From Scenedesmus sp. ARA3 (lineage: Eukaryota; Chlorophyta; Chlorophyceae; Sphaeropleales; Scenedesmaceae): a DNA stretch of 64,000 bases. This document shows, in pieces, positions 386-47,642 of the stretch. Both the position numbers and the translations under genes were made by a program. The notes under the pieces are model-generated. The model saw only the letters and a program-made list of their open reading frames with translations, ran no database searches and had not been told where the DNA came from. Each line of letters starts with the position of its first letter. The first letter of the stretch is position 1. The stretch covers positions 1 through 64,000 of the forward strand of contig RWJK01000305.1 in assembly GCA_004335835.1 (NCBI GenBank). Direction: 5' to 3'.

Positions 386-1131
386 GCTCACCAAGTGTGT
401 AGTGGCTCCACGCGTGCCATGCCCACGGCTGCTGCTGCTGCTGCCGGGCCATCCCGCTGCTCATCCAGCACCTCAGCCAGCAGCCATGCAACACAACACC
501 AACAGCCATAGCACGCCTGGCTGCCTGGTGCTGCCAGAGCAACTATGCTGATCAACAGCCATAGCACGCCGGCAACCTTGCGAGCACGCGACACTGCAAC
601 CGCAACACTTCAAGTGTACAGGTGCGCAAGCAAATCAGCAATAGGCTCACCAGGTGTGCAGTGGCTCCACGCGTGCCATGCCCACTGCTGCTGCTGCTGC
701 TGCCGGGCCATCCCGCTGCTCATCCAACACCTCCGCCAGCAGCCAGGCAGCCACTAAAGTGTCCTCCCCTGCTGACACCAGCAGGCCGCCAGAGTCAGAG
801 AACGCCAGGCAGCTCACAGCCTGCACATATGGATACAGTGGCACAATGTGTGTGAGCAGACCCAAGAGCCATGCAGCCACTCAGGTGTCCTCGTCAGCTG
901 ACACAAGCAGCCCCCAGAGTCAGAGGCAGCTCACAGCCTACACAGCAGATCACAGTTGCGAGACGTGACAACAGCAAAACAGTGAAACGGATACCATGAT
1001 ATGTGTAAGTGCGTGCTGCAGCTTACCTGCAACGCAGTCTGCTCAAAGTGCGTCTGCAGTGCATCATGTTGCTAAAATGATACAAGGTCGCCAGCACCGC
1101 TTCACAGGGTTGGCAGCTGCCGCCCAGCGCA

Positions 1132-1164
<33 letters not shown>

Positions 1165-1478
1165 CCAGCAGCAGCAGCAGCAGCGGCAGCAACCAATACC
1201 TTGTAGTGTGCCGGCCAGCTGCGCAGCAGCCTTCCAGAAAACGCCTCCCAGCAGTAGAGCGTGCCGCTGGCGCCACCCCCCACCAGGTAGGCGCCGTTGG
1301 GGCTGGCTGCGAGTGCCGTGAGGGGCTCTTGAGTGAAGCAACGCTGCAGCACCTGGTCCTGCAATGCAGAAACATGTGACATATCAGATGTTTGAGTTGA
1401 AAAACTGTTGTTTACAGTTTGGCTGCCAGTGCTGTGAGGGGCTCCTGGGAGAAGCAGCGCTGCAGCACTTGGTCCTGC
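386..1478 (-). repeat. Exon-edge echoes in introns of the WDR18-like gene
   Basis: There are three partial direct copies of exon edges. Positions 386-488 repeat the 3' part of exon 651-820 with its GTGAGC donor, and the copy keeps the protein frame. Positions 873-942 repeat the 5' part of the same exon, upstream of it, with a decayed acceptor. Positions 1421-1478 repeat the 5' part of exon 1200-1358 with the CAG acceptor. Each copy lies in the intron next to its source exon and in the same orientation. Confidence 0.8.
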
Positions 1479-2086
1479 AGGATGCAGGGGTGGACTAAAT
1501 CAGTCGTACAGTTGTATGTCGTACGAAACAGCAGGCAAGACAGATCGCTGCTTACTCACAGGCCTCAACATACGCATGTGGCCAATCCAACCCCAGCACC
1601 TGCCAACTGACAATGCGTGCTGCTGCCATGTCAGCTCTTTCTCCTCTACTGCAGCACTCTCAAACCCTTTAAAGACAACCCTCAACCCTGCCACACCTTG
1701 TGCCATGTCCAGAAGTGGATCGCATCCTTGCTGTTCTGTGCTGCTGCCAGGTAGTCACTGCCCAGCCTGGTCACGCGGCCCCTGCCGCTTGCGTTGCCCT
1801 TGTACTGCGTGAGCTGCGTGGCAGTGGCCAAATCCCTGCATGAGGCAGCGCAGAGTTACGCATAGATGCGACAGGATTGAAGTACAGAGATATTGTGTCA
1901 GCATACCAGGTGTGCGAAAGTGAGCACCGTGATGATGTGAAAAAGCTCTGCCAGCCAGCTTGCAGCTTGATGCTGCTCCAGGGCATGCAGTGAGTTCGCA
2001 GCTGCTAAAACCTGCAGGATAGTGACTCACCAAGCCGTTATGTTTGACTCTGTGCTGCAGGCAAGCAGCACCGCCTGCTGCTGCAT
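651..2086 (-). CDS. WDR18/IPI3-like WD40 protein (3' end missing)
   Basis: By family, WDR18/IPI3 is a WD40 subunit of the Rix1 (PELP1-TEX10-WDR18) complex acting in pre-60S ribosome maturation in the nucleus. Exons on the minus strand are 2031-2086, 1697-1835, 1200-1358 and 651-820. All have GT donors and AG acceptors and phases that close. The first exon starts at ATG 2086 and gives a short N-terminal blade (LLACSTESNITAW). Further matches are GSDYLAAAQNSKDAIHFW, the blade LYCWEAFSGRLL ending in AHYK near residue 118, then CLAFSDSGGLLVSAGEDTLV. These fit WDR18 better than a generic WD40 protein. The last exon ends in the TGG codon split typical of this gene. I found no continuation in 1-650, so the rest should lie to the left, unless the gene is broken by the repeat expansion there. 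Confidence 0.85.
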
Positions 2087-2726
2087 CAGTGCTGCTGCTG
2101 CTACTGCTGCTGCTGCTGCTACTGCTGCTGCTGCTGCCAACGCTCTGTAGCTGAATGCTGGACCAAGCTAGTTGCTCAAAAGTGTACACGTAATGGACTC
2201 GATTGTTTTATGTGCACGAAAGGCTACCGCTGTAATAGGACCACCGCAGCCTGGATGCCGGCAAGAATCACTCCAGCAACACGGGACACACGCAGGTGCT
2301 GCCAGCACTGCTGAAGTAAAGACATAAACTAGTATGCACAGGTATTGGTTCTCGATGCTTTGCTGAGGTGTTCACGGTCAATAACCCTTGTTACACTGAG
2401 CTGTCAGTCATCAAACGGTTGCCTGCTGATACGCTGCTGCTGTGCGCCCTGCACTGTGTTTCAAAGAATCTTTGAATGCAAGGTTCTTGTCAGCACCAAC
2501 AGTCATCCTGCCATCGGCAGGACACTCAGCTGTGGACACGCTGTTGCTCAACTTGAAAGGTGCTTAGAACTGCTGCAGTTTGCTGTGAATGCTGTCCTGC
2601 GGTGAATGTTTGCTTGCGATGCTGGAGTATTAATGACCAGTCATAGTTACACAACAGCAGGCTGGAGGATGGTGCCGCACCAGTTGCAACAGCAGCGCTG
2701 CTGAGTAGCAGAAGCAGCGCAGCACC
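2087..2726. promoter_or_regulatory. Divergent intergenic region, WDR18-like (-) / transporter (+)
   Basis: About 640 bases separate the two divergent start codons. A CTG/CAG run (2089-2142) sits directly upstream of the WDR18-like ATG. No TATA box or other core element was identified. A shared promoter is inferred from geometry only. Confidence 0.4.
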
Positions 2727-3961
2727 ATGCTGGGCAGGGTGGCTGCCTTGGCAGCCCTGGGAGGTTTCCTTTTCGGGTGAGCTGCTCATCTGCTTATACG
2801 TGTGCTGCTCCATCCTGCAACCTCTTAGCAGCTGCCTAACCACCCCATCATGGCATGTAAGCTGGTCGAATGTCATGTTGCACAACCGCCAGCCAACAGT
2901 TTACTTCATAGTAGGATCCACGCACCTTTCAGATATTGACAAACACTTCACTGCGATGGCTATCAGCACATGCAAGAGTTTGTGGTTCCCCATGTCAGCC
3001 ACAGATTGCACAACACGCCTGGCAGATTCCTGCAAGCAATGGGCCTGGCATTGTCCTGCAAGCATGCTTGCATCACCTCAGCGATTGCTGCGATAATAGC
3101 AGCAATAGAAATCAGCAACCGCAAAAAGCACAACTTGCTTGATTGCACCTGTTCCCTTGCAAGCCAGATTGCCATGCTGCATGCGCTGTTATGCATATCT
3201 GGCGCGCTGATCTTGATGCAGGTGGTGGTTACCGTATGCAGGTGTGGACTTGCACTCTTGCGCCCCAGCCACCAATTGCCTGCCCGCAACCGCTTGCTCA
3301 GTGTCCTGCCTCCAATATCTCTCAAACATCTTGCCCCATTTCTGACCTACGCAGCTATGACCTGGGCCTGATCGGAGGCGCCATGCTGGGCATCTCCCAG
3401 GCTTTCAACATCACAAAAGCAAGCACCAAAGAAGCAATCGTAGGCGCAGCAAAGCTGGGGGCATGCTTCGGCGCCTTCCTGGGCGGGGCGCTCATGCTGC
3501 GCTACGGGCGGCGCAAGGCGATTGCTGCGGAGGCGGTGTTCTTTGTGGCGGGGCCGCTAGTCATGGCAGCAGCAACAGGGCCAGGGTGAGGAAGGGGGTC
3601 GAGCAATGGAGCCTTCTCTCAGTTGCAATCTTAGTACGTTCCATGCTAGCATGACTGCTGCCGAGGCCGTGTTCTTTGTGGCGCGGCAGCTGGTCATGGC
3701 AGCAGCAAGTGGGCCAGGGTGAGCTCAGTCAGGCCATCGTCTGTTTGGGCTGCCAGCAAACCAGCCGTTGTTGTATGCCAGCAGTGGAATGCAGCGTGAG
3801 TCTTGCCACACGAGCGATTGCAGCGGAGGCGGTGTTCTTTGTGTTTGGGCTGCTGGTGATGGCATCAGCGCGTGGGCCGGGGTAAGCAAGCTGCTGCTGC
3901 TGCTGTCGTTGCCTCAGTCATGCCAGGGCTGTTTGTGGCGCGTGTCTTTTCGCCTGTCTGA

Positions 3962-3994
<33 letters not shown>

Positions 3995-6764
3995 AACTGC
4001 TATGTTTGACGCAGCGGCTTGTTGGGCGCTTTGTGGTTGGCCTGGGCATTGGCGCATCAGCCATGGTGGTGCCCACTGCTTCAATTCATCCTGCCTTGTT
4101 GACCGCAACAGCTGGTTTGGTGCTGCCTGTTGGTGCTTGGCATCGCCTGGTTCTCCCTGATGCTCTTACACTGCTGCCGCGCTACTGATGCTGCTGCTGA
4201 TGACGATGATGATGCTGCTGCAGCGGCCTGGTGGTTGGGCGCTTCGTGGTTGGCTTCGGCATCGGCGCCTCAGCCGTTGTGGTGCCCATTGCTCTCCACC
4301 TTGCTTCATTCATCCTGTCTTGTTGAATGGGGCGCTTCCAGGTGGGGCTGGGCATCACTAGATCTGGCCCTTCTAACGTTGCTGCTGCTGCTGCCCCAAC
4401 TTTCATGTCTGCTGCAGCGGCCTCGTTGTGGGCCGCTTTGTGGTTGGCCTGGGCATCGGCGCGTCAGCCATTGTGGTGCCTGCCTACCTGGCGGAGATTG
4501 CGCCGGCAGCCAAGCGAGGCGCGGTGGTGCAGACGTATGAGGTGCGGGGGTGGGCGTGTGTAGGGCTGGCAGGCGATGGTGCTGGGCGTGCTGTCAGCTG
4601 GCATTGTGCACCGGCCGTTCTTAATGCGCTAATGTACACAATGCACGAGCCTCTCTCTATACATCAGCCAGCTCTGTGGTGCTGCTGCTGCTGCTGCTGT
4701 TGTATGTATGTGTTGCAGGTGATGCTGACGCTGGGCATGCTGTGTGCTGGCATGGTGGACTGGCTGCTGCACGCCACTGCAGGGCCCGGGGCGTGGCGCT
4801 GGATGGTCGGCCTGCCCGCAGCACCAGGTGAGTGCAGTGCAGCGGAGCGTTCTCAGCCTGTCATACACAAGGCTAATGGTGTGTTTCCAAGAGCGTGGGA
4901 GGTGCAAGCCAGCTGTTGTTGTTGCCTGTGTGCTGGGCTCGTGCCCTGGTGGGCAAGGCCGTGCGAACTCCATGGTGCAACGGCAGGCCCCGGGGCGTGG
5001 CGCTGGATGGTAGGCCTGCCCGCAGCACCAGGTGCGGCAGATGGGCACTGCATGTATTGCTATGATCATGATGCGCTGCGTGTGTTGCTATGAAACTGGA
5101 AGTGCTTGTGTGTTTTGTGTTGTGATCTAGAGTGTGGTTGTTCTGGCCAGTAGTTGGTGCTGCTTGCGTGCTGGTCTTGTGGGATAGATAGAGGGGTCGC
5201 ACGGTGTGTTCATGCGGCATACGCCACTACAGACACCTGGTAAAATAGGAAGCTGCAAGCAGCTCAGCTCGGGCTCTGGTCTTGTGGGCTTGTGGGCTGG
5301 CTGCTGGCCGGAGCTGCGTCTGTGTTGGCTCATGCGTTGCCAGCATGGTAGGGCCCAGGGGCGTGGCGCTGAATGGTGGGCCTGCCCGCAGCGCCAAGTG
5401 CGGCTGGGGGTTGAACATGCTGCATGGCTGTTACGGCCAAATTTGAGACCTACGGCGTAGCATACGCCGTAAAAACCTACGCCGTAGGACCTATGGACAC
5501 GGATGTCACATCCCTAGACATGCATCTGTGTTACTGTATAAGTGCGCAGAGCGTCTAGCACATCCCTGGGATGCATTCTGGTAGCCTGCGACAGTGCTGC
5601 TTTAGCCTGCTGGCTCACCACGCTGTCCACTCCTGCGACGGCTGCCTTTGCTGCATGTTCAGGTGCTCTGCTGCTGGCTTCGCTGCTGCTACTGCCTGAG
5701 TCGCCGCGCTGGCTGGTGCTGCGTGGGCAGCTTGACCTGGCCCTGGCCACACTGCACAGGATCATTGAAAGCAGCGCCAGCCATGGCAGCAGCGGCAGCA
5801 GCAGCACCGTGGCGCATGCTGCTGCTCTGGATGCAGGAGGCAGCAGCGAGCAGCAGGTGGGTGGTGTGGCCTGGTTGCTCAGCAGTTGGTTGCTTGCGCT
5901 GCCATATCTCGCATCAAATCAGCGGCAGTCGTGCAAGCAGCTTCAGCAGCACCCCTGGCGCATGTAGTCTAAGTCTGATTAATGGTCAAGCTAAATGTCA
6001 TGCTTATGCTGCTGCTGCTGCTGCATTCTGCTGCAGGCCCTGGCCAAGGCCGAGGATGAGTTGCTGCTGCTGTGGAGCAGCGTGCAGAAGGAGCAAGCAG
6101 CAGGCCTGGAGCTGCGGCAGCAGCAGCAGCAGCAACAAGTTGCTACTGCAAATGGCACAGCAGCAAATGCTGGAGGCAGGAGCAGCCCTGTGCTGCATGC
6201 TGCCAATGGCCACGGCTCACACCATCAGTACAGCAGCAGCAGCCAAACTCAGCAGCAGCAGCAGCAGCAGGATGGGCTTGAAGGGGGCGCAGCTCGTGCG
6301 GTGTTCTCCCCTGCGCCAGCTGCTGGTGAACTGTTCACTATAGGCGACGACGACAGCGAAGAGGGCTCAAAGCACAACAACAGCGGGACCGCAGTAGCAG
6401 CAGCAGCAGAGGTTCGGACAGCTGCACATGACAGTCAGGAAGCTGCAGAAGCATTGAATGCTGGTCTGCCAGCAGCTGACAGCACCAGTGCAGCCAGGCG
6501 GCAAACATACAGCTCAGCAGACGAAGAAGAGCAGCAGCAGCAGCAGCAGCAGCAGCGTTCGCCGCGCCGGAAGCAGCAGCAGCAGTGGCCGCTGGCAGAC
6601 GACAGCCAGTCTGAGCAGCTGCTGAGTAGCTACTACCAGCGCAGCACAATGGAGGGCGCAAGCATGCCTAGTGGCAGCAGCAGCAGCATAGCGCAGCAGG
6701 TGAGCAGATTTGGCAATTGGCTTCGCAGCTGGCTGCGGCCGCAGGACAGCAGCAGCAGCTTGCC

Positions 6765-6797
<33 letters not shown>

Positions 6798-8396
6798 GTG
6801 GCAGCAGTGTGAGCCGGGGCAAGAGGCGAGCTTTTGGGGCACGCTGCTGGCGATGCTTGCTGACGTCGCTGCGGTGGTGCGGGGCCCGGAGCGCGCTGCT
6901 TTTGCTATTGCTGCTGCTCTGGCTGTGTTTGACCAGGTGAGCCGGATTGCCTATTGTCAGTGTATGCATATGTGTGTGCTTTGCATTCAGGATGCAGGGT
7001 TTATGTTTGCTTTGCTTGCTGACGTGGCCGCGGTGGTGCGGGGCCCGGAGCGCGCTGCCTTTGCCGTTGCTGCTGCTCTGGCTGTGTTTGACCAGGTGAG
7101 GTGGGTTACACTTTGCAAGTGTGTTGCGTGTGTGCTGCGCCCTAAGCATGCATTGGCTTTGCCATTGCTGCTGCTCCGGCTGTGTTCGACCAACGGAGAT
7201 GAGGGACAGCTGGCAGGCCAGTTTGGAAATGTACACACGTACATCATTCTCAGCGTAACATTGAAGCTAACTTGAGCACTGATCTTGCACTGATCTTGCA
7301 CTGATCTTGCACTGATGCTTATCATCCTGTGTCCCGATGCCTGCAGGCCACTGCAAGCACTGCCATCATCAACTACGCGCCAGAGGTGCTCTCCTCAGTG
7401 CTGGGCGTCACGGAGTCTGGCGCAGCAATCTTATACCCCGCAGCCATCTCAGTCACCAAATGCGTGGGCGTGGGCACTGCTTTGCTGCTGGTAGATGCTT
7501 GGGGCCGGAAGCCGCTGCTTATTTGGGGTGGGGTGTGCTGCGGTGCATCGCTGCTGGTGACTGCAGCGGCACTTGCAGCGAGCAGCGTCCCATTGTTCCT
7601 GCTGTCGCTGTGTTTGTTTATATTTGCATTTAGTATTTCGTGGGCAGGGTTGTATTGGGTGGTGGTGAGCGAGCTGTTTTCCATGGGGGCCAAGTCTCCT
7701 GCAAGCTCAGCCGCCACGTCACTGTTATTTTTGACCGGGGCTGTCATTAACTTTGTGTTCCTGACGCTCGTGCACTGGCTGGGTGCGGCGGCGTTTGTAC
7801 TGTTTGGGGCTGTTGGGTTTGCGAGTGCATGGTATGTGCACACAGCAGTGCCAGAGACAAAGGGGAGGACACTAGCAGAGATTCAGGCCCTGCTGGCGGC
7901 TCCTGCAAATAGTAACGCTGCCGTTACTGTTACTAACGGTGACGTAACATATGGGCGCTGGAGGGGCTGGGACTGGGGCCGCAGCACTACCCCAGCCACA
8001 GCTGCAGCAGCAGCACGCAGCAGCGATGGCGGCGGCGGTGCTGCTGGTGGTGTGGAGGGCAGTCGGCTGCTGCAGGGCAACGGGCAGCAGCAGCAGCAGC
8101 GGGGTAGTGGCGGTGCACAGGCTAGTACTAGAGCTGTTGAGCAGCATGGCAGCAGCAGCAGCAGTGAGCAGTACACGTCCCTGGGTGGTGAGGATGGTGC
8201 TGCTGGCGGGCAGTTCTGGCAGCTCTGGCTGCAGCGGCAGCAGCAGCGGCAGGCAGGGGCGGCAGATGGCGGCATGGCTCTGCCTCTGGGCCTTGAGTTG
8301 ATGGCTGTTGGGGGTGGCAGCAGGCGGCAGCAGCAGCAGCAGCAGCAGTCGCCAAGAGGGGCCGAGCATGCTCGGCTTGTGGATGGGCCGCACTGA
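2727..8396 (+). CDS. Sugar-porter family MFS transporter with a giant central loop
   Basis: A 12-TM major facilitator, probably an H+/sugar or polyol symporter. Exons are 2727-2776, 3355-3585, 4418-4541, 4719-4827, 5663-5856, 6037-6936 and 7347-8396; phases close throughout, giving 885 residues. Family signatures: GGFLFGYDLGLIGGAML in TM1 across the first splice junction, RYGRR (about 66-70), GRFVVGLGIGASAIVVPAYL then LAEIAP in TM4, PESPRW (183-188) after TM6, and PETKGRTLAEIQ (about 704-715) after TM12. Helix 7 starts in the last exon (STAIINYAPEVL). Unusual points: exon 6 encodes about 300 residues, mostly poly-Q/S, between TM6 and TM7, and about 175 low-complexity residues follow the TM bundle. 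Substrate cannot be read from sequence; the QQxTG-type TM7 motif is diverged. Introns hold many exon-edge echoes. Confidence 0.9.
3654..5402 (+). repeat. Exon-edge echoes in transporter introns 2-4
   Basis: The exon 2 tail with donor recurs at 3654-3722 and 3813-3886. The exon 3 head recurs upstream of it at about 4010-4074, 4212-4288 and (short) 4327-4359; the first two keep the GRFVVGxGIGASA coding sense and the second keeps a CAG acceptor. The exon 4 tail recurs at 4977-5037 and, more decayed, at 5345-5402. In each case the complete, phase-compatible edge is the one outside the cluster, so these are duplicates rather than the used exons. Confidence 0.85.
5449..5488. repeat. Short palindromic cluster (TACGSCGTA motif)
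   Basis: Three alternating copies of a TACGGCGTA/TACGCCGTA motif lie within 40 bases, including the palindrome-like CCTACGCCGTAGG. They sit in intron 4 of the transporter gene, in sequence unlike the surrounding CTG-rich intron. It could be a small mobile-element remnant or a foldback. No function is assigned. Confidence 0.6.
6991..7194 (+). repeat. Exon 6 tail echo that forms an intact in-frame potential exon
   Basis: Positions 6991-7095 repeat the last part of exon 6 (ADVAAVVRGPERAAF and on to FDQ). The copy is preceded by TTGCATTCAG and followed by GTGAGG, is exactly 105 bases (35 codons) in phase 0, and has no stop. It could be spliced in between exons 6 and 7 without changing frame, duplicating the cytosolic segment before TM7. 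A third, decayed copy lies at about 7144-7194. Confidence 0.75.
7276..7316 (+). repeat. 12-nt tandem repeat
   Basis: About three and a half copies of GCACTGATCTTG lie in the last intron of the transporter, some 30 bases before the exon 7 acceptor. Confidence 0.85.
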
Positions 8397-9323: not shown

Positions 9324-10993
9324 ATGGACCTGCTTGAAGTGCTCGGCATTTCACCGCCTGCAGCGGACAGCGCGCTCTGCTGCGAGATATACGATGAAAG
9401 ATATGTACAAGGTGGAACTTTAAGCATAGCTACAGCTCCCGACCCTGCTCAGCATGTCACCAGCAGCAACAGCAGCAGTAGCACTGCTACCGTAGCAGGC
9501 ACCAGAGGAGTTTGCATGGGCACATCTCAGGCTCGAATATGTTACTTGCAGGCGCAACGAACGAAGCGTTGGAAGCGCTGTGCGGGCATTGCATGCAGCT
9601 GCTGGCCCCACACATGGAGGGCTACATCTGGCAGCACGAGCCGCTCAGGCTGCAGAGCAGCAGCAGGCAGCTGCCGCCATGGCTGGCCAAGAAACGAGGT
9701 GCGGCTGTGTTCAGCAGCAATGAGAAGCTGCACAGCATGGCGCTTGAATTGACGGAGCGCAATTCAGCCACAGCAGATGCGCCTGCAGCCCCACTTTTGC
9801 GAAGCAGGTTGCAGCAGATTGGTTGATGGAGTATGTGGGGACAACAAGCGCTTTTCGAGCAGTTGTTGCAGTGCAGACCTACTGGTCATCAGCTAGGGCA
9901 GCGCCACATACCTACATTTGAACACGCAAGCACAGCACCACAGCACCCTTTGCATGTGTTGTAGGAGCAGCAGGTGGTGCAGCACTATGCTGCAGCCTTT
10001 AAGCCTGTGTGTTGTGGAGTCTGCACCCCCAACTGCCCTGCTCACCACACCTGCATGCTGCCATGCGCCCTGCTCCATGCCTCTTGCACTATGCCTCTTG
10101 CACTTGGACTCACAGGCAAGCGCTCCTCCCAGCAGCAGCAGCAGCAGCAGCAGCCATGCCTGTGGGCCGCACTGCGCTACGGGGACCATGTGGAGGACGA
10201 GTGGTGGGCAGTGTGGCTGCTGCTGGAACTGAGCAGGAGTTTGCCACACCTGTTCATACGGCTGTGGGATGATGACGGGGACTTTTTGCTGATTGAGGTG
10301 AGCAGCTAGCTGCTGCTGAGGAGCAGCAGCTGTTTTGTCTTCAGCAGCAGCTGTGATCTGGTAATGCAGCCTGCTGTTGCTTGTGGCAGCCGCCGCGTCG
10401 GGTGTGACAGCAGTACGTTGTCCCTTCACCTGAATCCACACATCAGTTCCTTTGCACCACATTCCTCCAACTCCGCTCATGTGTGCTGTGTGCTATGCAG
10501 GCAGCCTATGCGCTGCCGCGCTGGCTCAAGCCAGAGACCACCACCAACCGGGTGTGGCTGCGGGGTGGCAAGCTGCACATTATTCCGCCACCCAGCAAAG
10601 CCGCGCCGCTGCTGCCCCCTGCACCCAGCATTGCAGATGCTGTCGGCATACTGAGCTGCGGCAACTATGAGACGCACAGCCCACGGTGAGTGGTTGTGAA
10701 GCACTTGGAGAGCGCTTCTGAATACAGTTATGAGTTTCACACTTGCAAGAGCAACAGCAGCAGCAGCAGCAGCAGATGTAGAGCCACCAATCGGGTGTGG
10801 CTGCGGGGTGGCAAGCTGCACATCATCCCGCCACCCAGCAAGGCCGCACCGCTGCTGCCGCCCGTGCCCAGCATTGCGGATGCTGTCGGCATACTGAGCT
10901 GTGGCAACTATGAAACACACAGCCCACGGTGAGAGTTATGAGAGCACTCTGAGAGCGCTTCTGAATACAGTTATGAGTTTCGCACTTGCAAGA

Positions 10994-11028
<35 letters not shown>

Positions 11029-12063
11029 TGTAGAGGCACCAACCGCGTGTGGCTGCGGGGTGGCACGCTGCACATCATCCCGCCACCCAGCAAGGGGCGC
11101 CGCTGCTGCCGCCTGCACCCAGCATTGCTGATGCTGTTGGCATACTGAGCTGCGGCAACTATGAGACGCACAACACATGGTACGTGATGCAGGGTGGAGG
11201 CTGCCATGCTTGCCCGGCTGGCGGGCTACCCAGACAAGGCAGCGCAGCAGCAGCAACACACTGTAGGAACACATCCTTGTTATTACAGTCAACCACGGGT
11301 CATATGTGTGTCACATCCGCTGCTGCAGGGTGGAGGCTGCCATCCCGGCCCGGCTGGCTGGCTACCGCCACAAGGCAGCGCAGCAGCAGCAACACCTTGT
11401 AGTAACACATTGTTGTCTTTATAGTCAACCTCATGTTATGTATTTGTTATATCCCGCTGCTGCAGGGTGGAGGCTGCCATCTTGACCCGGCTGGCTGGCT
11501 ACCCTGCCAAGGCAGTGCAGCAGCAGCAGCGCGTGCTGGCCTGGCTGCCGCGCCGCGTTGGGCTGCTGCTGCAGGCAGACCCCCAGCTGGCCTCAGCAGC
11601 AGTGGAGGCCTTTGTAGGCAGGTGAGCGGGACTGTCATGCTTGTCACAGTTTGGAGGTTACACAAGTAATCTTGCCCGTTTCTGTTTGTCACTGTGCCTG
11701 TGTGCTGCCTGCTGTGCCGGATGTAACATACTGGCTGGCGGGCTTCCTAGCCCAGCTTCAATGCCACATTCCCTCAGCACCTTTTGTTTCTGTGACTTTG
11801 CCCTTGCAGGCAGCGTGAGGATGTGCAGGCGGCAGCCAAGCTGTCCAACTTCCCTCCAGCCGACATGACCACAGCCCTGGTCACACTCAACCGCTGCATG
11901 TATGCACAGCTGATGGGCGCTGACTTTGCGCCACCAAAAGCCTACCCTGCTGCCCCTGGGGGCACTTGGCTGGGCGGGAATGTAACAAAACAAGGCAAAG
12001 CACACAGCATGGGTTTGAAGCTTGCTACTGGTATGGAGATGCTGGCGCTGCGGCTGGGGCTGG

Positions 12064-14452: not shown

Positions 14453-14967
14453 ATGCAGAGCTTGGCACCGCTGATAAAGGCAGGCTTGGGCATGGGCCCT
14501 GCAGCAGTAGGCCAGGCCCTGCCAGCAGCAGCAACAGCAGCCCTGCCGCTGCTGCAACGCCTCTTTTCCACCGGCACCACCAAGCGGCTGTATGTAGGCA
14601 ACCTGAACTTTCAGACGAAGGCGGAGCAGCTGGCGCAGCACTTTGGGGCGTATGGCAGCGTGCAGGATGTGGTGATTCCCCTGGACAACATGGGGCGCTC
14701 CAGGGGCTATGCCTTTGTGGAGATGGACACTGAAGGAGCAGAGTCAGGTGAGCAGCGCATGTGACAACTTGAGGGTTTTGCTGATTAGGCCAGGACAAGA
14801 TTGGATGCAGGACGCTGTGTATGGCGCGTGGCTATGCTTGGGATGTCGTGAATGAGATTGACCTTGAAGGAGCAGAGTCAGGTGAGGCAGCGCATTTGAC
14901 ATGCCAGGGTTTCTTGCTGAGTGTGGGGGTGATAAGATGCTGATGACTGTCTGGCATGGCAGAACCC

Positions 14968-15023
<56 letters not shown>

Positions 15024-15544
15024 GCAGCAGGAGCAGCAACAGCAACCAATGATGATGAGGCCGGGACGAGTAGACTGCAGGACGCCCGTGCATGGCTTGT
15101 GGCTGTGCATGTGATGTGCGTGTGTTGTTGTGCGCATGTGGTGTTGTGTGCATGCCTTCAACTGCTGGCACTGTATCATGCATGGTATTGCCCCTATACA
15201 CCGGCACAACAGGGCTGCATCACGATGTGACGCCAGCAGTGTGTTGCCTGCCAAGGCCTGTTTCATGTGCAGTGCAGCTGGTGCAGTGACTGCCCCGCCA
15301 GCGGCAGCAGGCGCATTGCTGACGTAGCGTTTATCGCTGCTACTCTGCATGCTGCTGCCTTGTGTAGCAGCGGTGGGCAGCATGGCGGCAAGTACACTGA
15401 CGACTTCGCAACCAACAACCCCTTATGCAGCGATCTCGTCCATGCATTCAGACGTGCATGCTGCTGCTGCTGCTGCTTGTCACCACAGCGTTGGGCAGCC
15501 CGAACCAGAGTGACTTCGCGGCGCGCACCATCTGACGTACCATG

Positions 15545-15587: not shown

Positions 15588-15782
15588 TTTCTACCTATCA
15601 CTGCAGCTGTGGGCAGCCTTAACCAGAGTGATTTCATGGGCCGCACCATCTGGGTGAACGAGGCGCGCCCAAGGGAGGAGCGTCCACCCAGGGGGGAGCG
15701 TGGCGGCTATGGTGGCGGCAGGGGCGGAGGCAGGGGCGGCTACAGGCAGCGGCAACAGCAGGATGACTGGGAGCAGCAGTGA
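14453..15782 (+). CDS. Glycine-rich RRM protein, probably mitochondrial
   Basis: Two exons, 14453-14747 and 15607-15782, joined in phase 1, give 156 residues. Residues 1-43 form an Ala/Leu-rich, Arg-containing presequence ending QRLFSTGTT, which resembles a mitochondrial targeting peptide. A single RRM follows, with RNP2 LYVGNL (46-51) and RNP1 RGYAFVEM (84-91), and LNQSDFMGRTIWVNEARP closes the fold. The C-terminus is glycine/arginine-rich (RGGYGGGRGGGRGGY). This layout matches plant mitochondrial glycine-rich RNA-binding proteins, which bind organelle transcripts and can act in RNA editing or splicing. Plastid targeting is not excluded. The intron carries echoes of both exon edges. Confidence 0.9.
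14849..15541 (+). repeat. Echoes of both RRM-gene exon edges in its intron
   Basis: Positions 14849-14886 repeat the exon 1 tail (ending GAAGGAGCAGAGTCAG) with a GTGAGG donor, and similarity continues into the intron (about 14799-14840 compared with 15070-15120). Positions 15482-15541 repeat the exon 2 head but end in an early stop. A more decayed trace may lie near 15365-15410. Confidence 0.8.
14968..15040 (+). repeat. (CAG)n microsatellite in the RRM-gene intron
   Basis: A CAG run with a few CAA and GAG interruptions, about 70 bases. It is an exception to the usual rule in this window that introns carry CTG on the sense strand. Confidence 0.9.
15545..15586 (+). repeat. (CTG)n run before a splice acceptor
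   Basis: A pure CTG run ending about 20 bases before the RRM exon 2 acceptor CACTGCAG. It probably serves as part of the polypyrimidine tract, as at many introns in this window. Confidence 0.9.
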
Positions 15783-23862: not shown

Positions 23863-23911
23863 CTGTTGGCTCAAAAGCTGCAGGGCCTAGATGACAGCGA
23901 GATTGCAGCTC

Positions 23912-23985
23912 ACATGTAAGCAGTCTACATGTGAGCAGTTTACATGTAAGCAGTCTACATGTAAGCAGTTCACATGTAAGCAAGC
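23912..23985 (+). repeat. 15-nt tandem repeat, about five copies
   Basis: Unit ACATGTAAGCAGTCT with one to three differences per copy, just beyond the DUF1826 stop codon. Each unit contains the near-palindrome ACATGT. Confidence 0.9.
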
Positions 23986-25779: not shown

Positions 25780-28194
25780 TCACAGCTCCTCCTCTTCTTC
25801 ATCCTCATCCATGCACACCTTGTCTATCGCTGCCTTGATGGCAGCGCGGTCAGCCGCGCCAGGCCGCAGGTCCAGCGCCGCGTGCAGGCAGCGCAGTGCG
25901 GCATCAGGCTGGCCCAGGCGCTTGTGCAGCCGGCCCATCAGGAACGCCACACTGGGCTCACGCGGCACGATCGCCTGCAGTGCAAGCAGAGCAGGCCACA
26001 AAACGATAAAAACATTATTGGTTCATCATGTGAGCAGATTGCAGATGGTGGCCCTAAGGAACGCCACGCTGGGCTCGCGCGGCACGATGGCCTGCAGGAG
26101 CGAAACAGCAGCATAACATGTGGAGTGTGTGTTCAGTTCAGTTGCACGATGGCCTGTGTCAGGCTCAGAAACAGCAATGCTTTCAGTAACAGTTTAGTCG
26201 TGTTGCGTCGTATGTGTGGTGCATGCTGGCCAGGCGCTCTCTGGTGCAGGCGGCCGATGAGGAAGGCCGCGCTGGGCTCGCGCGGCACGATGGCCTGCAC
26301 GGATAGAACGGCAGTGGGTACATCAGATGTGCTATATGACAAGTTGAGTCCTTTATGTCACAAGGAAGGCCGCGCTGGGCTCGCGCGGCACGATGGCCTG
26401 CAGTGCAAGCAGAGGCGGATACAGAACAGGAAGCTGGTGCCTGGGCAAGCAGCAATCTGGATGGCCGGGCTGGCCCAGGCGCTTGTGCAGGCGGCCCATC
26501 AGGGACGCCACACTGGGCTCGCGCGGAACGATGGCCTGCAGGACCACAAACAACACCTTGCGTAATGGCAGAAGCTTTTGTGTCATATACAATGCTGCAG
26601 GTTTCGTCAGGCCCCAGTGCGGGTGGCTCATGAGAAAGGCCACGCTAGGCTCACATGGCATGATTGCATGTTGTGTCGGTTGCCGGACACAAACATCGCG
26701 TCAGTTGGCAGCCCCAATCACTGAATGGTATCATACACAGTCGTGCCGCCACATTAAATAACTATTGGCAGGGGGTATCACCGTGACATAGCCTCACACC
26801 TTGCCATCCTGCTGCTGTAGCTGCTGTCAACAGCACGTCCTACGTGTGCAGCTCGACAGCCCCGGCAATGTGAACTCTCCAGCCTCACCTGCAGCGCTGT
26901 GAGCTCTGCCAGTGCCTCCTGGGGCCGCTCCAGTGCCGCCAGCACGCCAGCCGCCTCGTAGCGCGCCAGCGGGTTGCGCCCGTCAATGGCGATGGCGCAC
27001 TGCAGGCGCGCGCAAGCGATGGTAGCATTCTTAATGTGTTGATCGCAATGAAGAGATGCAAGGGGTGCCTAAAATCGGCGACGCAGCAGTGCTCCAGCAA
27101 GCAAGCTGCGCAGCAGGTGCGCACACCATGCAGCCTAGAGGCCTTGGAGCCTATGCAGGCAGGCACGGAGCAGACTACCCAGGAGTTCACTGGCTGACAC
27201 AAGGCCTTCAGCAATGCAGGATCTCGTTATGCATGGTGCTGCTTCACAACGCCCCCTGCAAATGTGGTGTGCAGTGGTTGGCTGAGGACGCCATGGATTT
27301 AATAGGCTACAGGCGGCACACTGCTTCTCAAGTGAACGTGCATGCACTGCCACCCACCTTGAGCTGCCGCAGCGCCTCAGCCAGGTGGTTCATCTTGCGC
27401 AGCGCAGCGCCGCAGCAGCAGCGCAGCACGCTGCTGCCGGGGTTGATGCGTGCGGCCGCCTGGAAGTGGCCCAGCGCCTCGGCGGGCTTTTCCTGCTTCA
27501 GCGCGATCTGGCCCAGGCCGTAACTGCTTACGTAAGATGTTACGACGCCAGTTCGGTCAACAGCAGCAGTAGCAGCAGCAGCAGCACAGGAAATGAGCTG
27601 GATTCGTTGGCTGCCCATGGATGCAGCACAGAAAACGTTTCACCCTGTGTTGCATCTACAGCATGAGTTCCAACAGCGCATGGCTAGCAGCAACTTTTAA
27701 GCGTGCGGCCGCCTGGAAATGGCCCAGCGCCTCAGCGGGCTTCTCCTGCCTCAGCAGGATCTGGCCCAAGCCATAACTGTCACATCACACGTCAACGGCA
27801 GTTTGAAAGACGAACAGCGGCAGTAAAGAAGCTGGATGTGTATTTTACACATCACAGGATCTGGCCATGCTGCAACAGACGCCAGGCTGCTTTGACTATA
27901 TGGCTGGCAGACTGACTGGCAGCGAACGCTGAGCGTACGCAGCTTTCTGGTCTCAGGGCCCTGCAGCAGCACCCCAGCCACTCACAGTGCGTTGTAGTGC
28001 CGCGGGTCGCAGCGCAGCGCGTGCTGGTACGCTGTCGCAGCTGCTGCCAGGTCCTCCCCTGCCAGGTGCTCATGGCCCAGCAGGGTGGCTGCATAGGCCA
28101 TGTGTGGCGCCAGCTGCAGCGCGCGCTGGAAGAGGCGCACCGCTGACTCGTGCTCGCGCTGCAGGCTGAAGCAGTTGCCGGCAATGCACCTGCG

Positions 28195-41703: not shown

Positions 41704-41747
<44 letters not shown>

Positions 41748-43239
41748 ACATTATGGACACCATCAATTGTGTATACTGAGGAGGGCAATTGGCTTGCTTG
41801 CAGGGGGCAGGGGCACAAGAGAAGATGAAGCTGGTACCAACTGCATGTAAGCGTTCGAGCCGAAGCGATCAGCCAATGATGATTCTGATTACGATACACA
41901 GGCTGCCAGAAGATGAAGGAAGTTGCTGCAGCAGCGGCCACAGACAAGCAGTCAGTCGCGTTGTTGGAGGACTGTGCATGCCCAACACACGGCAGCATGC
42001 ATCCATTCGTGGGACCCATTTGGGCAGGTGTGTGCGCATTCCGTATGCACATGGCTGTTGTTGGTGGCTGCTGCTGTTGCTGGCTAGCAAAGGCAGCAGC
42101 CACTACAGGCTGCTGCTGGTGACGGCTGGCTGCCAGCTGCTGTGGGTGCTGGCCACTGCCCGCTGTGCTGCTGGTGACCAGCTGCTGCTGCCGCTGATTG
42201 GCAGCTGCTGTGCGCGGCCGCTATTTTGAAATACTGAATGCAGCTTACCACCTAAGCCGACATTGTACGAGCGGCCCTGGCAGCAATGCTCACCGTTGTT
42301 CCACTCCAGGTCCCACACGGTGCCCGCCTTTCCCAGCTGGTTGGCGATGATGTTCAGGTTGGCGCCCAGCTTCCTGCAGGTGGCGCAGACAAGAGACAGG
42401 CCTGAACAAGAAAGCAGTACGTGACAACACAGCACTGATCAATGTATGTGCATCAGCATCCCATAGGGAGGCATAGCAAGGGCAGCTTCTGAGCAGTGCG
42501 GTTCATACTGTGAAGCCTTGAGGTGAGCCTGGGGCATGACGGCAGCCAGATGTTCACTGCAACATGAGGAGTGTCATTCATCCTGCTGATAAGCATGTGT
42601 TGGCTGCTACACCAAGTCTTCACAAGGTGGCAGCTGGATGTGTGCTTGCTCCTGCAGCAACCCAGCTCTATGCGGCAACCAGCGTGCTGGTCACCAGTTG
42701 GCTGTCATGCTGCAATCGCAACTGTGCCAATGCACATGCCGGCTGGATGCTGTGTGTGCATTGCATGTGCATTTGCTCTGCTGCAGCATCTCTACCTGCA
42801 CAAAGGTACTTGCAAAAGCCAGCAACGGTTGCAATGGTTCATCTGCTGCTGCTTGTACATAGCCACACTCAGCAAACTGGGCAGCTGCAGAGCTGTTGCT
42901 GTGCGCTGCTTGCACTCACCAGTCATAGTACAGTGTAGTGAGCGCTAGCTTGTTTGTGCGGTTTTGAAACAGAGTTGCTTTGAACTTCTCAGGCCAAATA
43001 GGCGGTGTGGCTCGCCATGGGGCGCTGCTGCCTCCACTACCACCGCTGCTGCTGCTGCCACTGCTGTCACCAACTGCCTGCTGCTGCAGGGGTTCAGTGG
43101 ACGCTAAGTATGCCTGTATCTTACTTAGGTTTGGCAGTTCTAGTGTTGTACTGCTCGGTAAGCATCCTAGAAGCAGGCATGCCACGCATGCAAGCAGTAG
43201 ACAGGTGCGCATTGTTCTGCGGTGTTCGTCAGTGAGCAT
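40879..43239 (-). CDS. Secreted plant-type protein of unknown function
   Basis: Matches, from memory, a land-plant family of secreted or ER proteins with no experimental function (sometimes loosely labelled as a glycosyl-group transferase). Exons are 42920-43239, 42294-42373, 41552-41701 and 40879-41189; phases close, giving 286 residues. ATG 43239 is the first in frame. ATG 43212 gives a cleaner signal peptide (MRTCLLLACVACLLLGC) and may be the true start. Family blocks: PPIWPEKFKATLFQNRT, LYYDW followed by NLNIIANQLG, VWDLEWNNGTSFIF, FDVGILTPDWLANSTHLG, FVCDVWTKADFINYYADVD, PVRWTFLWS, and KKLWQAPKYCF. Four cysteines in the core could form disulfides. The tail is poly-A/Q. An intron echo of exon 3 lies near 41812-41846. 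Confidence 0.85.
41704..41846 (-). repeat. CAG run at an acceptor plus a short exon-head echo
   Basis: Positions 41704-41744 are a pure triplet run (CTG on the sense strand) directly before the exon 3 acceptor. Positions 41812-41846 repeat GAGAAGATGAAGCTGGT from the head of exon 3. A fainter copy of AGAAGATGAAG is at about 41908-41918. Confidence 0.7.
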
Positions 43240-43564
43240 GTATGCAGACTCTAGATCGGCAATTTCAGAAGAACGGTTCGATGAAGTGAAGCAGAAGCTG
43301 CAAAGCGACCAGTACTCGTCACAAGGTCAAAACCTACAAAACAACAAGTTCACAACGAGCAGGTGGTCGCAGGTAATGTCGTGTCCTTTTCACAGACACC
43401 TCCCGAATTCATATATCCTCTATAACTGTATATGCTTACACTAGGAGTCTTGATCGTTCCTCAAACGAGCACAAACAGCAGCAAATCAGGGGCAGGAAGG
43501 AACCCGGTGGCAAGCTAGGCAATCGCAGGACACCATCGAATATTGTGTGCTGATAGGCACACGA
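43240..43564. promoter_or_regulatory. Compact divergent intergenic region
   Basis: Only about 325 bases separate the start codons of the secreted-protein gene (-) and the 11-mer-repeat gene (+), the shortest divergent gap in the window. No core motif was recognised. Confidence 0.45.
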
Positions 43565-46500
43565 ATGCAGCAGCGGCAGCGGCATGTGCTGCTGCTGTGG
43601 CTGTGCCTGCTTCTCCTGCTGCAAGTGCAGCTTGCACCTGTCAAATGCCACGGGCATGGCAGCAATAGCCGCAGCTGGGAGGCTGCACGTGCTGCAGCTA
43701 GGGCAGCACATGAAAGAAACCTGCAGCTTGCAGGACTGGTGGACCGTTCGGGCGTGCTTGCTGAGCACACGGCACATGGATGGCACAGGGAAGCAGCGGC
43801 ACCGGTGACGCTGCATGCAACACAGCATGCAGCCGGCACCAGTGGCAACACAGCCAGCGGCAGCCAGCAAGATGAAAGGCAGTTGCCTCCTTCAGCTGTT
43901 ACAGCAGCACAAGTCACAGACTCAGGTGAAGCGGCAGCTGTGACAGCAGAAGTTGCTGCATCAAGCTGTCCAGCGTCAACACCAGCCTGCCAAGCAAGCC
44001 CGGCCACATGGGCTGGCGACAATGCCAGGGCAGCAGCAGCGGCAGCTGCTACCTGGTCTTGGTCAGCAGCTTCTGCAGCTGCTGATGTTGCCAGATCAGC
44101 AGCAGCAGCAGCATCGACGCCTGGTGTCGCCAGGTCGGCTGCGGCCTCAACAGCTGCCATGGCCAGGTCAGCGGCTGCAGCAGCAGCTGATGTCGCCAGG
44201 TCAGCAGCAGCAGTGACACCTGGCATGGTCAGGTCAGCAGCAGCAACAACAGCTGGCGTCGCCAGGTCAGCAGCAGCAGCGGCTGCAGACGTTGCCAGGT
44301 CAGCAGCAGCAGTGACACCTGGTGTGGCCAAGTCAGCAGCGGCGGCAGCAGCGACAACAGCACAGCTTGCCAGGTCAGCGGCCACAGCAGCGGCTGATGC
44401 TGCCAGGTCAGCAGCAGCAGTGGCTGTGTCAGCAGTAGGTAAGGCATCCGCGCCTGCTGCTGCTGTGGTGCAACACCCCACTCCTGCTTTGCCTGCTAGC
44501 ACAATGGCACAAGCTGCAGACGTGGTGCTGTTGCAGCAGCAGGAAAAGGATCAGGGGCAGAAGCACAAAGATGACCGTACAGTGGCCACACGGAAAGGCA
44601 AGCCAGGACAGCAGCAGCAGGAGATGCAGCCATGGTGGTTGGTGTGCCTGGTCACTCATGTGAGCTGCTTTGTGCTGGGATGGCTGCTGAGAGGAGGGCG
44701 TGCACGGCAGCAGCCATCAACATCAGAAGCATCAGCGGCAGCGCCAACAGCTGGTTCACAAGCAAGCGACACAGCTGCAGAAGGCCTTGAGGCCTTCAGC
44801 AGCAAGGCAGCCATTGGTGTTGCTGAACGGACTGCAGCAATGCAAGCTGACAAGCAGCAGCAGCAGCAGCAGCTGTACAGGGCAGGTGGTTTCAGTGGCC
44901 GGTGCTTTGCAGCTGTGGAGGCCCCAGCTGGGGAGCAGGAGCAGCAGCAGGAGTCAGCGCCAGCAGCAGAGCCGCTGTCAACGCAATCATTGTCATCAGC
45001 AGCTGCTGCAGGGCAGGAAGAGACCTTGGCAGCAGCAGCATCGCGAGCAAGCAGTTCCAGCAGCGTTGATGAGCTGGCAGCAGCAGCAGCTGAGGCGCCC
45101 CGCAGCGCGCCCATCAGCAGGGCAGCAGTTTGCAAGAGGCTGCTGAGCAGACGCGCAGGCGTGACGCGTGCACTGCACCTTGCGCCGAAGCACGGCAGCA
45201 GCACTAGGCCCAGGGACCAGGCTGGCAGAGCAGCAGCAGCGAGCAACGCGGATCAGGTGCTGCAGCAGCACCAGCAGCAGCAGTTTGGCATGTGCCAGTT
45301 GCACAGCAGGGGCAGCTCCAGAGACGGCAGCAGTAGTGCTGGAGGTGGCAGGGGCAGCAGCAGTGCAGGTGGTGCTGCAGCTATGATGCAGCTGCAGGCT
45401 GTGCCTGGCCCAGCTGCTGCAGTGCTGGTGCAGACGTGCCAGCAGCAGCAGCAGCGGCAGCAGCAGCAGGTGCAGGTCACGTTCACGGCAGGGCCTGAGG
45501 TGGTGCATGGCGTGCTGATACCAGCAGTCAGGTGAGGGGCTGGGCGGGCAGCGCTGACTGGCATTGTCCTGTGTCATGACGTGGGTAAGTGAAATGTCTT
45601 GGGGCTTGTGAGCAGCAAGTTTCACACAGATGTTGGAGGCGGTATGCTACAACAAGCACATGTGAGATGCTGTATCAAGCGCGCAGCTGCCACATAACAA
45701 TGACTTGCTGCGCCACCCCTCACCGCTGCCACTCCGATGTCACCGGCTGCCACATGGCCACAACAGGGTACTGCAGCAGCTGGCAGTCGGCGTCTCGAGC
45801 CTCTCCCTACTCTCCTCCGCATTGATACACCAGCTGCACAGCATCACTGCTGCAGGCAGCCGCCTCATCAGCCAGCTAGATCAGCTGCTGGGCTGGGCAG
45901 GCAAGCAGGAGCGGCAGCAGCGGCTGGCGGCTCAGCAGGCGCTGGGGGAGCGCTGCGGGCAGCTGGGGCTGGGGATGCTGCTGGTGGGGCTGGCGGTGGC
46001 TGCTGTGCGCGTGGGCCGGCTGTGGGAGGTGCACGAGGTGCGGTGGGATGGCGAAACCTTGAATCTGGATCTGAATGATTGCGGAGGTGGCATGCTAGCT
46101 GTTACACTAGTGTATCGCACACAATAGTTGATCAGGAGATCCAAGAGTCAAGATTCAGGCATTTTGTCCAGCAGCTTTTGGTTCTTTACTTGCTGGTGGG
46201 TGCTGACGTGTGGGGCTGCTGCTGGTGGGGCTGGCGGTGGCTGCTGTGCGCGTGGGCCGGCTCTGGGAGGTGCACGAGGTGCGGCACGCTGTTGATACAC
46301 TGATTGGAAAGTTGGCGTGCTGCTGTAGCTCCTGTATTTGCTTGCTATGCAGCCTCTGTGGGTTGGGCTAGTTGTTGATGTATGCTGGTTTGTAGTTTTG
46401 CAGCATGCGGGCGCTGGGGGAGCGCTGCGGGCAGCTGGGGCTGGGGCTGCTGCTGGTGGGGCTGGCTGTGGCTGCTGTGCGGGTGGGACGGCTGTGGGAG

Positions 46501-47642
46501 GTGCACGAGGTGCGGCACGCTGCCCACTTGTTGAACTCAGATGTGGAATAGAGTGAAGTTGGCACGCTGTATGGCGTGTTGGCTTAGAAACTGTGGGTTC
46601 GTCGGATTCAAATGCTCTTGAAGCTTGAAGTTGACTTGCTGCTGTAGCACCTGCTTTTGTGTGCTGTGCTGCTTTCTGTGGGGTGGGCTAGTTGTTGATG
46701 CTGGTTGTAGTGTGCAACATCCAGGTGTTGAACGATGCAGATAGGTATGTCATCTGCGCTGCTGATATTGGTTGCTGTGCTGCTGCTGTATTGTACAGGT
46801 GTGCATGGCGCGCAGCCGCCCCAGCGGCTGGCACTTGCGCATGGCAGGGGTGGCAGGCCTGAGCAGTGCCTGGCAGTACACCTCCTGCTGCTCTCAACAG
46901 CTTGGTGAGTGTGAGCGGAGCAGCGGCTTGCTGTGCTAGTGGTGGGGTCAGGGTCAATCCTAGAGGTGCATTGCATTAAGTATGGTGAACACCTGCCTGT
47001 GCCTGCTTAGCAGACGGCCGCCAGCACAGCAGCCAAGGCAGCACAGACCAGCGTGGAATGGGCAGGCTGAAGTTTAGATAGCAACACTGCAACTTGTGCT
47101 GCTGATTTGCAGGACGCTTCGTGATACGACTGATTGTCCTGTAAGCCCACTTGCCTCATCAAGTCGCTTTTGTTCGCTGCGCTGCACTGAGCCTGTTGTT
47201 GTATCTGCTGCCTGCAGGCCTTTGCGCAGTGGGCCTGCTGGCGCTGTACTGGCTAGCACGGGCCAGCTGGCAAGCCCTGCTCAGCAGCGGGGCCAAGGGG
47301 GCAGCAGCAGGCCCTAGCAGAGCCTGGCAGCTGGATCTGCTGCTGTTCAGGGGCCTGGTGTGCTCCCTGGTGGGTGTGCATGTGGTGCACTGCTTGGGTG
47401 CTGCGTGGCTACCCTGGCTGCTGCTGTGGCTGCAGTGGGTGGGCTGCCAGCTGCTGCTGCAGACTGTGCAGCTGCGGCTGCTGAGCAGCATGCTGGCAGT
47501 GCTGACTGTGGGGCTGCTGCTGCCGCTGGCGATGGCTGCTGTGCCGTTTCACCCCAAAGGAGTGATGCTGCAGGGGTGGGTGCTTGATGTGGCGCCATGG
47601 GTGGGGCAGTTGCTGGTGTTGCAGCGGGTGCTGCCACTGTAG
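43565..47642 (+). CDS. Membrane protein with 11-residue repeats; C-terminus possibly CPR5-like
   Basis: Exons are 43565-45531, 45767-46037, 46799-46904 and 47218-47642; phases close, giving about 922 residues. There is an N-terminal signal or anchor (HVLLLWLCLLLLLQVQLAP). Ten consecutive units of about 11 residues, consensus VARSAAAxxxG/D, run from about 44087 to 44440. A membrane segment follows (WWLVCLVTHVSCFVLGWLL), then low-complexity sequence. Exon 2 has a helix and a TM (GLGMLLVGLAVAAVRVGRLW). Exon 4 has several TMs (GLCAVGLLALYWLARASW, LLLWLQWVGCQLLLQ, MLAVLTVGLLLPLAM). The run from WHLRMAGVAGLSSAWQ through the next TM recalls plant CPR5, a nuclear-envelope membrane protein, but this rests on weak resemblance. 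A possible 28-base microexon (47113-47140, GRFVIRLIV) would need an alternative acceptor near 47191. Two genes fused by my model remains possible. Confidence 0.6.
44087..44440 (+). repeat. Ten 33-nt (11-residue) coding repeats
   Basis: Units begin V/M/L-A-R/K-S-A-A-A and are 11 residues long with few exceptions (13 and 14 in two units). With a basic residue at position 3 and small residues elsewhere, an 11/3 amphipathic helix is expected, as in LEA or perilipin/synuclein-type lipid-binding repeats. Confidence 0.85.
46204..46524 (+). repeat. Two echoes of the exon 2 tail (11-mer-repeat gene)
   Basis: Positions 46204-46292 and 46404-46524 repeat the end of exon 2 (ERCGQLGLGLLLVGLAVAAV and on to VHEV) with the donor GTGCGG. 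Both continue into CACGCTG, so they share intron sequence with each other. The second is longer and fully open. Confidence 0.9.

Follow-up and report, generated by a model that had tools for sequence, protein, structure and literature searches.

Local direct copies of exon edges and splice sites in introns of the green alga Scenedesmus sp. ARA3

Published accounts describe several routes by which local duplication places coding sequence and splice motifs in new positions. In a potato RdRp gene a tandem duplication crosses an intron–exon boundary and a new intron has been gained (PMC4974935), while duplicated exonic AGGT has been reviewed as a source of introns (PMC3443670). Novel intron positions have arisen via tandem duplication in Drosophila (PMC2891723), and tandem duplication of whole exons gives rise to mutually exclusive exons (PMC6071210). 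Small tandem duplications have in turn been ascribed to fill-in by Pol alpha-primase at breaks (PMC8355091). Here we examine the first 64 kb (hereafter the window) of a 73.7-kb contig (RWJK01000305.1) in the 87.3-Mb, 1567-contig assembly GCA_004335835.1 of the green alga Scenedesmus sp. ARA3, in which introns hold partial copies of neighbouring exon edges together with their splice sites. Hellsten (2011) and Gao and Lynch (2009) are cited in the review of tandem genomic duplication as an intron source.

The copies are local and direct, lie at exon–intron boundaries, decay in a near-neutral manner, recur on other contigs and form tandem units in one third of pairs. We consider it probable, though well short of certain, that they are relics of frequent short tandem duplications, kept mostly where splicing removes them. 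Genomic DNA would be duplicated in units of about 90–270 nucleotides (nt), and a unit spanning a donor or acceptor would still yield a correct messenger RNA if the outer site were used. We infer that the outer splice site is indeed the one spliced. The extra exon edge and its splice site would then be trapped within the intron and decay under little or no coding constraint, with repeated rounds producing arrays. Duplications inside exons would survive only in frame; those inside introns would persist too, but with both copies free to drift their similarity would fade sooner. The duplications themselves presumably stem from DNA-break repair.

Repeats, gene models and exon boundaries

Our sample comprised the window and 15 further loci, about 206 kb with a GC content of about 57.5% (57% in Tetradesmus obliquus, in which the mean intron is 462 bp; PMC5966456). 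Sampling was non-random, as contigs were chosen by number; contig C1411 was taken in for its length and its appearance in one of the whole-assembly searches described below, and loci L003, L004, L013–L020 and L026–L029 were left out. Comparison of the window with itself (BLAST, at least 50 bits) gave 43 direct repeats at offsets below 1 kb (42 with longer seeds) and no inverted ones, in agreement with a preliminary description of this DNA in which all copies had the orientation of their source. Direct repeats were absent at 1–2.5 kb, and the sole inverted match was more than 2.5 kb apart. Across all 16 loci there were 133 direct repeats and one inverted repeat below 1 kb, no direct repeat at 1–2.5 kb, and one direct and one inverted repeat farther apart. 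Occurrence of the pattern in shuffled sequence had been named as counting against the description; none of five Markov-shuffled windows contained repeats at the same search settings.

Such repeats were present in 11 of the 15 other stretches and absent from four. They were clumped (15 of 40 five-kb bins empty, one bin holding seven, variance/mean 1.84), with one repeat-free gap at 46.7–67.2 kb, so that the earlier suggestion of a regional phenomenon stands as regards the clumping and the gap but not as a confinement to one region. Duplication density was unrelated to coding score (rho −0.09), and about 11% of the predicted intron sequence in the sample lies inside recognizable local duplications. 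Misplaced alleles or false local duplications might be suspected in so fragmented an assembly, yet we find an assembly artefact scarcely credible: pair identities range from 66 to 100%, several copies have frame-breaking gaps or stops, five extra copies occur at one site, and the protein of a metagenomic relative shows similar copies. As a separate observation, the dynamin-like and C2/VASt genes at 46721–64000 of the window have many introns and no detectable local duplication, and the whole 10-kb stretches L006, L008, L010 and L023 are likewise without any.

Genes were modelled with a splice-aware gene finder that was self-trained on the sampled loci, with neither annotation nor RNA. Four settings were tried and that with the highest donor cost (−11) was kept by eye, because looser settings merged genes or gave far more introns; all later tests use it. 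Under this setting 34 genes were predicted, with 289 introns of median length 257 nt; their donors resemble CAG/GTGAGT and their acceptors CTGCAG/G, but some neighbouring genes are merged in these models and some copies are labelled as exons. Pfam matches were found in nine of ten typed proteins, the families including Sugar_tr, SGT1, ANAPC3/TPR, WD40, RRM_1, TRAP_alpha, Abhydrolase_3, VASt and CN_hydrolase.

Aligned copies of an exon edge with its GT or AG were found where they had been described, at 3520/3653/3816, 4418/4011/4224 and 4773/4977/5350, and likewise at 10541/10784/11037, 45970/46211/46442, 644/385 and 25974, the last with five copies upstream. A total of 21 clusters up to 46.7 kb (at least 45 bits) and about 30 extra copies by hand count agree with the reported figure of more than 25 copies, whereas the models place the window clusters in eight genes (seven models, one merging two) rather than at least nine.

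Before the junction tests, pairs with more than 50% simple triplet runs or fewer than 45 bits were discarded; removal of redundancy then left 102 pairs in 70 clusters. The boundary test drew on 52 cases in which one copy was exonic and the other was not. Copies touched a splice edge in 49 of these, compared with 9.8 expected from random places in the same exons, which bears out the boundary enrichment for which the preliminary description had proposed a check. The described arrangement, with donor edges recurring downstream and acceptor edges upstream, was also upheld: 19 copies of donor edges were in the intron that follows the source exon and 19 of acceptor edges in the one that precedes it, while three were on the wrong side (two donor-edge copies in the previous intron and one acceptor-edge copy in the next). 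Nine further copies lay elsewhere, and three of the 52, including one of those nine, were of whole exons. Fragments of exon interiors were rare (3/52).

Tandem structure, decay and competing explanations

The smallest offset per cluster was 72–267 nt in 67 of the 70 clusters and 319, 631 and 781 nt in the others. Offset counts for these clusters peak at 100–140 and 220–260 nt, which is no more than suggestive of two preferred lengths. In 33 of the 102 pairs the alignment covered 85% of the offset or more, marking them as full tandem units, and the offset was divisible by three in all five full-tandem exon–exon pairs, in keeping with the survival of in-frame units alone inside exons. Similarity continued into the intron past the splice site in 50 of 73 junction-anchored pairs (p≤0.01, local alignment with 100 shuffles each). 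Among copies that the models do not treat as junctions, GT or GC was kept at 48 of 52 donors and AG at 64 of 69 acceptors. Taken together, these counts favour the proposal that short boundary-spanning tandem duplications add copies of splice sites. Two finer regularities were considered and rejected. Donor breakpoints fixed at +5 to +7 had been suggested by eye, but intron similarity at p≤0.01 persists in 14 of the 33 pairs with short intron extension. A preferred exon piece of 38–50 nt is probably a detection-limit effect, from which only the full-tandem cases, 23 out of 74, are free.

Decay was followed in 80 partly redundant pairs of exon and non-exon copies, where differences were distributed 136:117:291 by codon position over 4444 nt and all 30 gaps were not a multiple of three. 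Exon and copy diverged by about 8.5% at first and second codon positions and by 19.6% at third positions, and introns differed from each other by 18.6%; a value at first and second positions about half that of introns fits a freely drifting copy facing a conserved exon. When each exon edge was represented by a single copy (frame clear for 56 of 58), the differences were 95:82:191, and on contigs other than that of the window the third-position share was 0.47. The share was mildly raised, at 0.53 (p 0.001), where the models treat both members of a pair as exons. An apparent coding constraint on the copies, seen in a curated set of window genes as 134 of 206 differences (65%) at third positions with a nominal p of 3e-7, was rejected: in that set a change in an exon is counted anew for every copy, and some pairs have modelled exons as both members. 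With one copy per edge the signal shrank; it persisted on the window's contig but was absent elsewhere.

A number of results weigh against the duplication reading, and several of these count in favour of one or other of its rivals. An unaligned spacer separates the copies in 69 of the 102 pairs, only the other 33 being full tandem units, which is a correction to the preliminary description. In 33 of the 73 junction-anchored pairs similarity is lost within the first 15 nt of the intron; by hand count, significant intron similarity was found in 36 of the other 40, while 19 of the 33 lack it, including eight with exon parts more than 90% identical. These spacers and short extensions would be expected if templated repair, or insertion from RNA, had placed exon fragments in introns. 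We regard this as a very improbable origin, however, given the rarity of exon-interior pieces and the full tandem units in one third of pairs, and the splice sites carried by the copies mean that spliced RNA was not their source. No full-tandem pair exceeds 93% identity and hence no fresh event was seen; young copies could be missing through short-read collapse or because a burst has ended. The proposed lengthening of introns was seen as a tendency but not as a significant effect, since introns with repeats have a median of 321.5 nt (n=64) compared with 251 nt without (n=225; p=0.11).

Also at odds with random duplication is the distribution of pairs among gene-model classes, in which copies may be labelled as exons. 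Boundary and intron-only pairs stood at 71:13, with 12 exon–exon pairs, and intergenic pairs numbered two compared with 11.1 under random placement, a scarcity beyond what decay alone explains. We compared these values with forward simulations of random duplication and neutral decay in which offsets and the lengths of exons and introns were taken from the data, whereas insertion–deletion rates were invented, substitutions uniform and duplications limited to one per gene. Exon–intron pairs remained detectable longer than intron–intron pairs in these simulations, but the boundary to intron-only ratio reached only 1.8–2.7, intron extension of at most 15 nt occurred in 0.14–0.34 of cases and unaligned spacers in 0.30–0.65, all short of the observed values. 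Only the harshest setting for large insertions and deletions approached them. This shortfall implies either far more remodelling of introns on a large scale than seems likely or some real boundary preference.

Such a preference would follow if breaks or template switches favoured junctions, for example where splicing or R-loops expose DNA. Repeats covered 58 donors and 41 acceptors out of 289 each, compared with 27.2±3.9 and 26.8±4.4 under random circular shifts, and this excess, the 71:13 ratio and the intergenic depletion all point towards targeting. Against it, exon–exon (12/102) and intron-only (13/102) pairs also occur, which runs counter to the earlier idea of a process special to boundaries even though simulation falls short of the excess. 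Moreover, detection favours exon–intron pairs, the models possibly label copies as exons, and among the pairs found there is no fresh event with a sharp breakpoint. We therefore judge boundary-targeted duplication unlikely, albeit with an appreciable chance of being correct. The same modest chance is given to a broader proposal, namely that in this algal lineage exon–intron junctions are hot spots of size-limited (about 90–270 nt) duplication tied to splicing or transcription, perhaps with two preferred lengths near 100–140 and 220–260 nt, by which exon edges with live splice sites go on being copied into introns as raw material for new splice sites and introns. Random duplication with selection accounts for much of the pattern but falls short of the boundary excess; targeting of boundaries is not needed, yet it may contribute.

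A further difficulty lies in the third-position share, which with one copy per edge was 0.52 compared with a neutral maximum of 0.47 (p 0.02–0.03) and on the window's contig reached 0.58 (p 0.004). If unequal exchange had taken place between divergent haplotypes, the copies would have been diverged at birth; in that case, or if gene conversion had refreshed them, synonymous differences in exons and dissimilar introns would have been present at the outset. The third-position share on the window's contig is of this kind, as is that of the curated genes (in which exon changes are counted several times), and several copies have splice sites that are intact yet spelled differently. The first two copies of an array in the SGT1 gene (10541 and 10784) show 13 differences over 145 exon sites, with 12 falling at third codon positions, and this pair may be under constraint or derived from two alleles; the third copy is frameshifted. 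By eye, the SGT1 introns at 10686–10783 and 10929–11036 differ mostly in their first 30 nt and are then near-identical except for a triplet run, a mosaic pattern not expected from plain drift.

We nevertheless give divergent birth or conversion only a slim chance. Counted once per edge, the copies are close to neutral as a whole, and the share off the window's contig has the neutral value. Four gene regions were also searched against the whole assembly, and no second locus or haplotig that could donate copies was seen for any of them; one search scored 40 of 207 candidates, because a dispersed repeat fills its candidate list, and the others scored all. Other whole-genome matches were to this 93-nt repeat, and short matches were mostly to triplet runs.

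The constrained appearance of the SGT1 pair could also indicate that copies are functional alternative or mutually exclusive exons, and many have strong splice sites (mean donor score 2.7 compared with −0.6 for intronic GT; acceptor 4.1 compared with 0.4 for intronic AG). By our estimate, however, neutral decay at 5–8% would leave about as many intact sites. Most copies comprise one edge only, with whole exons in 3/52, every gap is frame-breaking (30/30), and the protein alignments argue in the same direction. With one copy per cluster, residues 5–206 of the transporter matched positions 1–215 of Sugar_tr as the best stretch, with the remainder forming a second stretch, and the SGT1 profile aligned as one stretch; with extra copies kept in, the first half of the transporter and SGT1 were each split into two stretches. 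Transporter proteins with and without copies differ in length, so that their scores are not comparable. The SGT1 whole-protein score was higher with the extra copy than without it (274 versus 260 bits), a slight gain that runs contrary to the duplication reading and arises because both copies match the profile. On balance we think functional exons very unlikely.

Copies and other features of the window

The WD40 gene lies on the reverse strand. Its exon at 651–820, identified from the gene model, a WD40 Pfam match and repeat pairs, is the source of both a donor-edge copy at 385–490 (3' edge plus GTGAGCC, offset 259 nt, 94%) and an acceptor-edge copy at 867–944, the latter containing a stop and gaps that break the frame. 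Also on the reverse strand, exon 1200–1358 has a copy of its 5' edge at 1420–1487 (offset 116 nt). On the forward strand, three exons of the sugar transporter have two copies each. Exon 3355–3585, across which Sugar_tr (PF00083) is continuous without the copies, has donor-edge copies at 3653–3723 (with GTGAG) and 3814–3890 (with GTAAGC). Two others are supported by the gene model and Pfam: exon 4418–4541 has acceptor-edge copies at 4001–4073 (with a 4-nt deletion) and 4217–4286, and exon 4719–4827 has donor-edge copies at 4977–5034 (93%) and 5350–5404 (90%, carrying an insertion of 1 nt and, in the original frame, a stop).

Between the last two copies, at 5183–5275 of the transporter intron, lies the dispersed repeat of about 93 nt. 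It occurs elsewhere in at least 39 copies at 91–97% identity and two at 78–79%, on both strands and many contigs. At seven other places one end keeps GATAGATAGAGGGG and the other AGCTCGGGCT, and in four of these places the shared sequence runs on for about 15 nt beyond the AGCTCGGGCT end; the repeat may be a short mobile element.

Further along the forward strand, a tandem copy of an exon edge and intron (from about 6854–6996) occupies 7013–7192, where the modelled exons are doubtful, and a third partial copy of this unit lies at 7158–7192. The SGT1/ecdysoneless gene contains two arrays on this strand, one of 2.6 tandem units of 243 nt (3' part of an exon, donor and intron) at 10541–11181 and one of 2.5 units of 136 nt at 11188–11528 that includes the acceptor edge of exon 11466–11621. 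The nearest named relatives of the SGT1 protein are from green algae. Of 56 SGT1 relatives, P0052, a protein derived from a metagenome, contains in its reading frame two copies of the 5' edge of an exon whose start in the window lies near 10500. The two are 83 residues (249 nt) apart, and both are preceded by Leu-Gln, as an acceptor CTGCAG would encode. Since the window copies the 3' edge of this exon and P0052 the 5' edge, the relative would have had its own event, and an independent duplication in the same SGT1 exon is the most likely explanation to judge by these sequences. A second pair of overlapping matches among the relatives (P0049) was rejected as a weak alignment rather than a repeat.

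The RRM gene, with an RRM_1 Pfam match, has on the forward strand a donor-edge copy at 14854–14920 from an exon ending at 14747 and an acceptor-edge copy at 15459–15534 of exon 15607–15782. In the CDC27/APC3-like gene (reverse strand; TPR and ANAPC3 matches), the exon 5' edge at 25907–25974 is the source of five upstream acceptor-edge copies within 26050–26541, of which one, of about 14 nt, was seen by eye only and two are in part labelled as exons by the model. An acceptor-edge copy of exon 27358–27523 lies at 27701–27779 (offset 253 nt).

On the forward strand, a within-exon tandem duplication with an offset of 105 nt is in frame at 44024–44422. The membrane-protein exon end at 45935–46037 is the source of donor-edge copies at 46211–46291 (97%) and 46407–46522 (95%); the intron after the second is 80% like that after copy 1 beyond an insertion (46309/46628). 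The leucine-rich edge at 46424–46486 has four matches elsewhere in the assembly, of 46–59 nt at 83–87%. In the same gene, 47391–47584 matches 17 places on 16 other contigs at 71–86%, for which a gene family, an effect of leucine-rich composition and an old repeat are alternative explanations.

Other repetitive sequence in the window includes a 15-nt unit, ACATGTAAGCAGTCT, which is present at 23905–23982 in 4.7 tandem copies with 89% matches and is unlike the units of 90–270 nt. Runs of CAG/AGC/CTG are abundant, with 7557 of 206202 sampled bases in runs of at least 12 nt (for example at window 1–56), and give long poly-Gln, poly-Ala and poly-Ser stretches in predicted proteins. Ends of full units lay near CAG/CTG runs about twice as often as expected (26/99 versus 12.5±3.3), whereas the ends of all pairs showed no excess (41/306 versus 37.5±7.0). 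A scan of the window with Rfam found nothing at gathering scores.

Comparison with described systems

The boundary duplications in this genome span many ages and so form a natural series, which could be used to test how the spliceosome chooses between duplicated sites and could show the frequency with which they give rise to new introns or exons, as well as the kinds of DNA damage behind them. It also carries a warning for annotation, as a plain gene finder labels some of the relics as exons. Patch-mediated repair duplications in rice are one candidate source of short direct duplications, and break repair by fill-in is another; neither explains the size range and gene preference seen in the alga.

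Introners are near-identical introns dispersed over a genome, whereas no dispersed echo introns were found when the four gene regions were searched against this one, with 40 of 207 candidates scored in one search and all of them in the others. Mutually exclusive exons share with the alga the presence of tandem copies of exon sequence in an intron, but they are described as whole exons used singly, while the algal copies are mostly of one edge and decaying. The Drosophila cases likewise involve local duplication of coding sequence with splice motifs; those described are a few intron gains inside reading frames. Intron gain by tandem duplication has in common with the alga a short genic duplication made harmless by splicing, but there exonic AGGT, once duplicated, gives a new intron, whereas the algal unit already spans a junction and its copy ends in an old intron.

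The closest counterpart is the potato RdRp gene, in which, as in the alga, the duplicated sequence spans an intron–exon boundary. The preliminary description had stated that no named system of this kind was known, which was too strong in view of this published case. The potato account concerns one gene and the gain of an intron, while the alga has dozens of clusters, mostly decayed relics that show no such gain. The best-ranked matches in the open-licence literature reported no genome with introns full of such relics. What we see thus seems to be ordinary events at an unusual density, as judged from this genome alone: single boundary-spanning cases have already been published, and the novelty lies in how common they are here.

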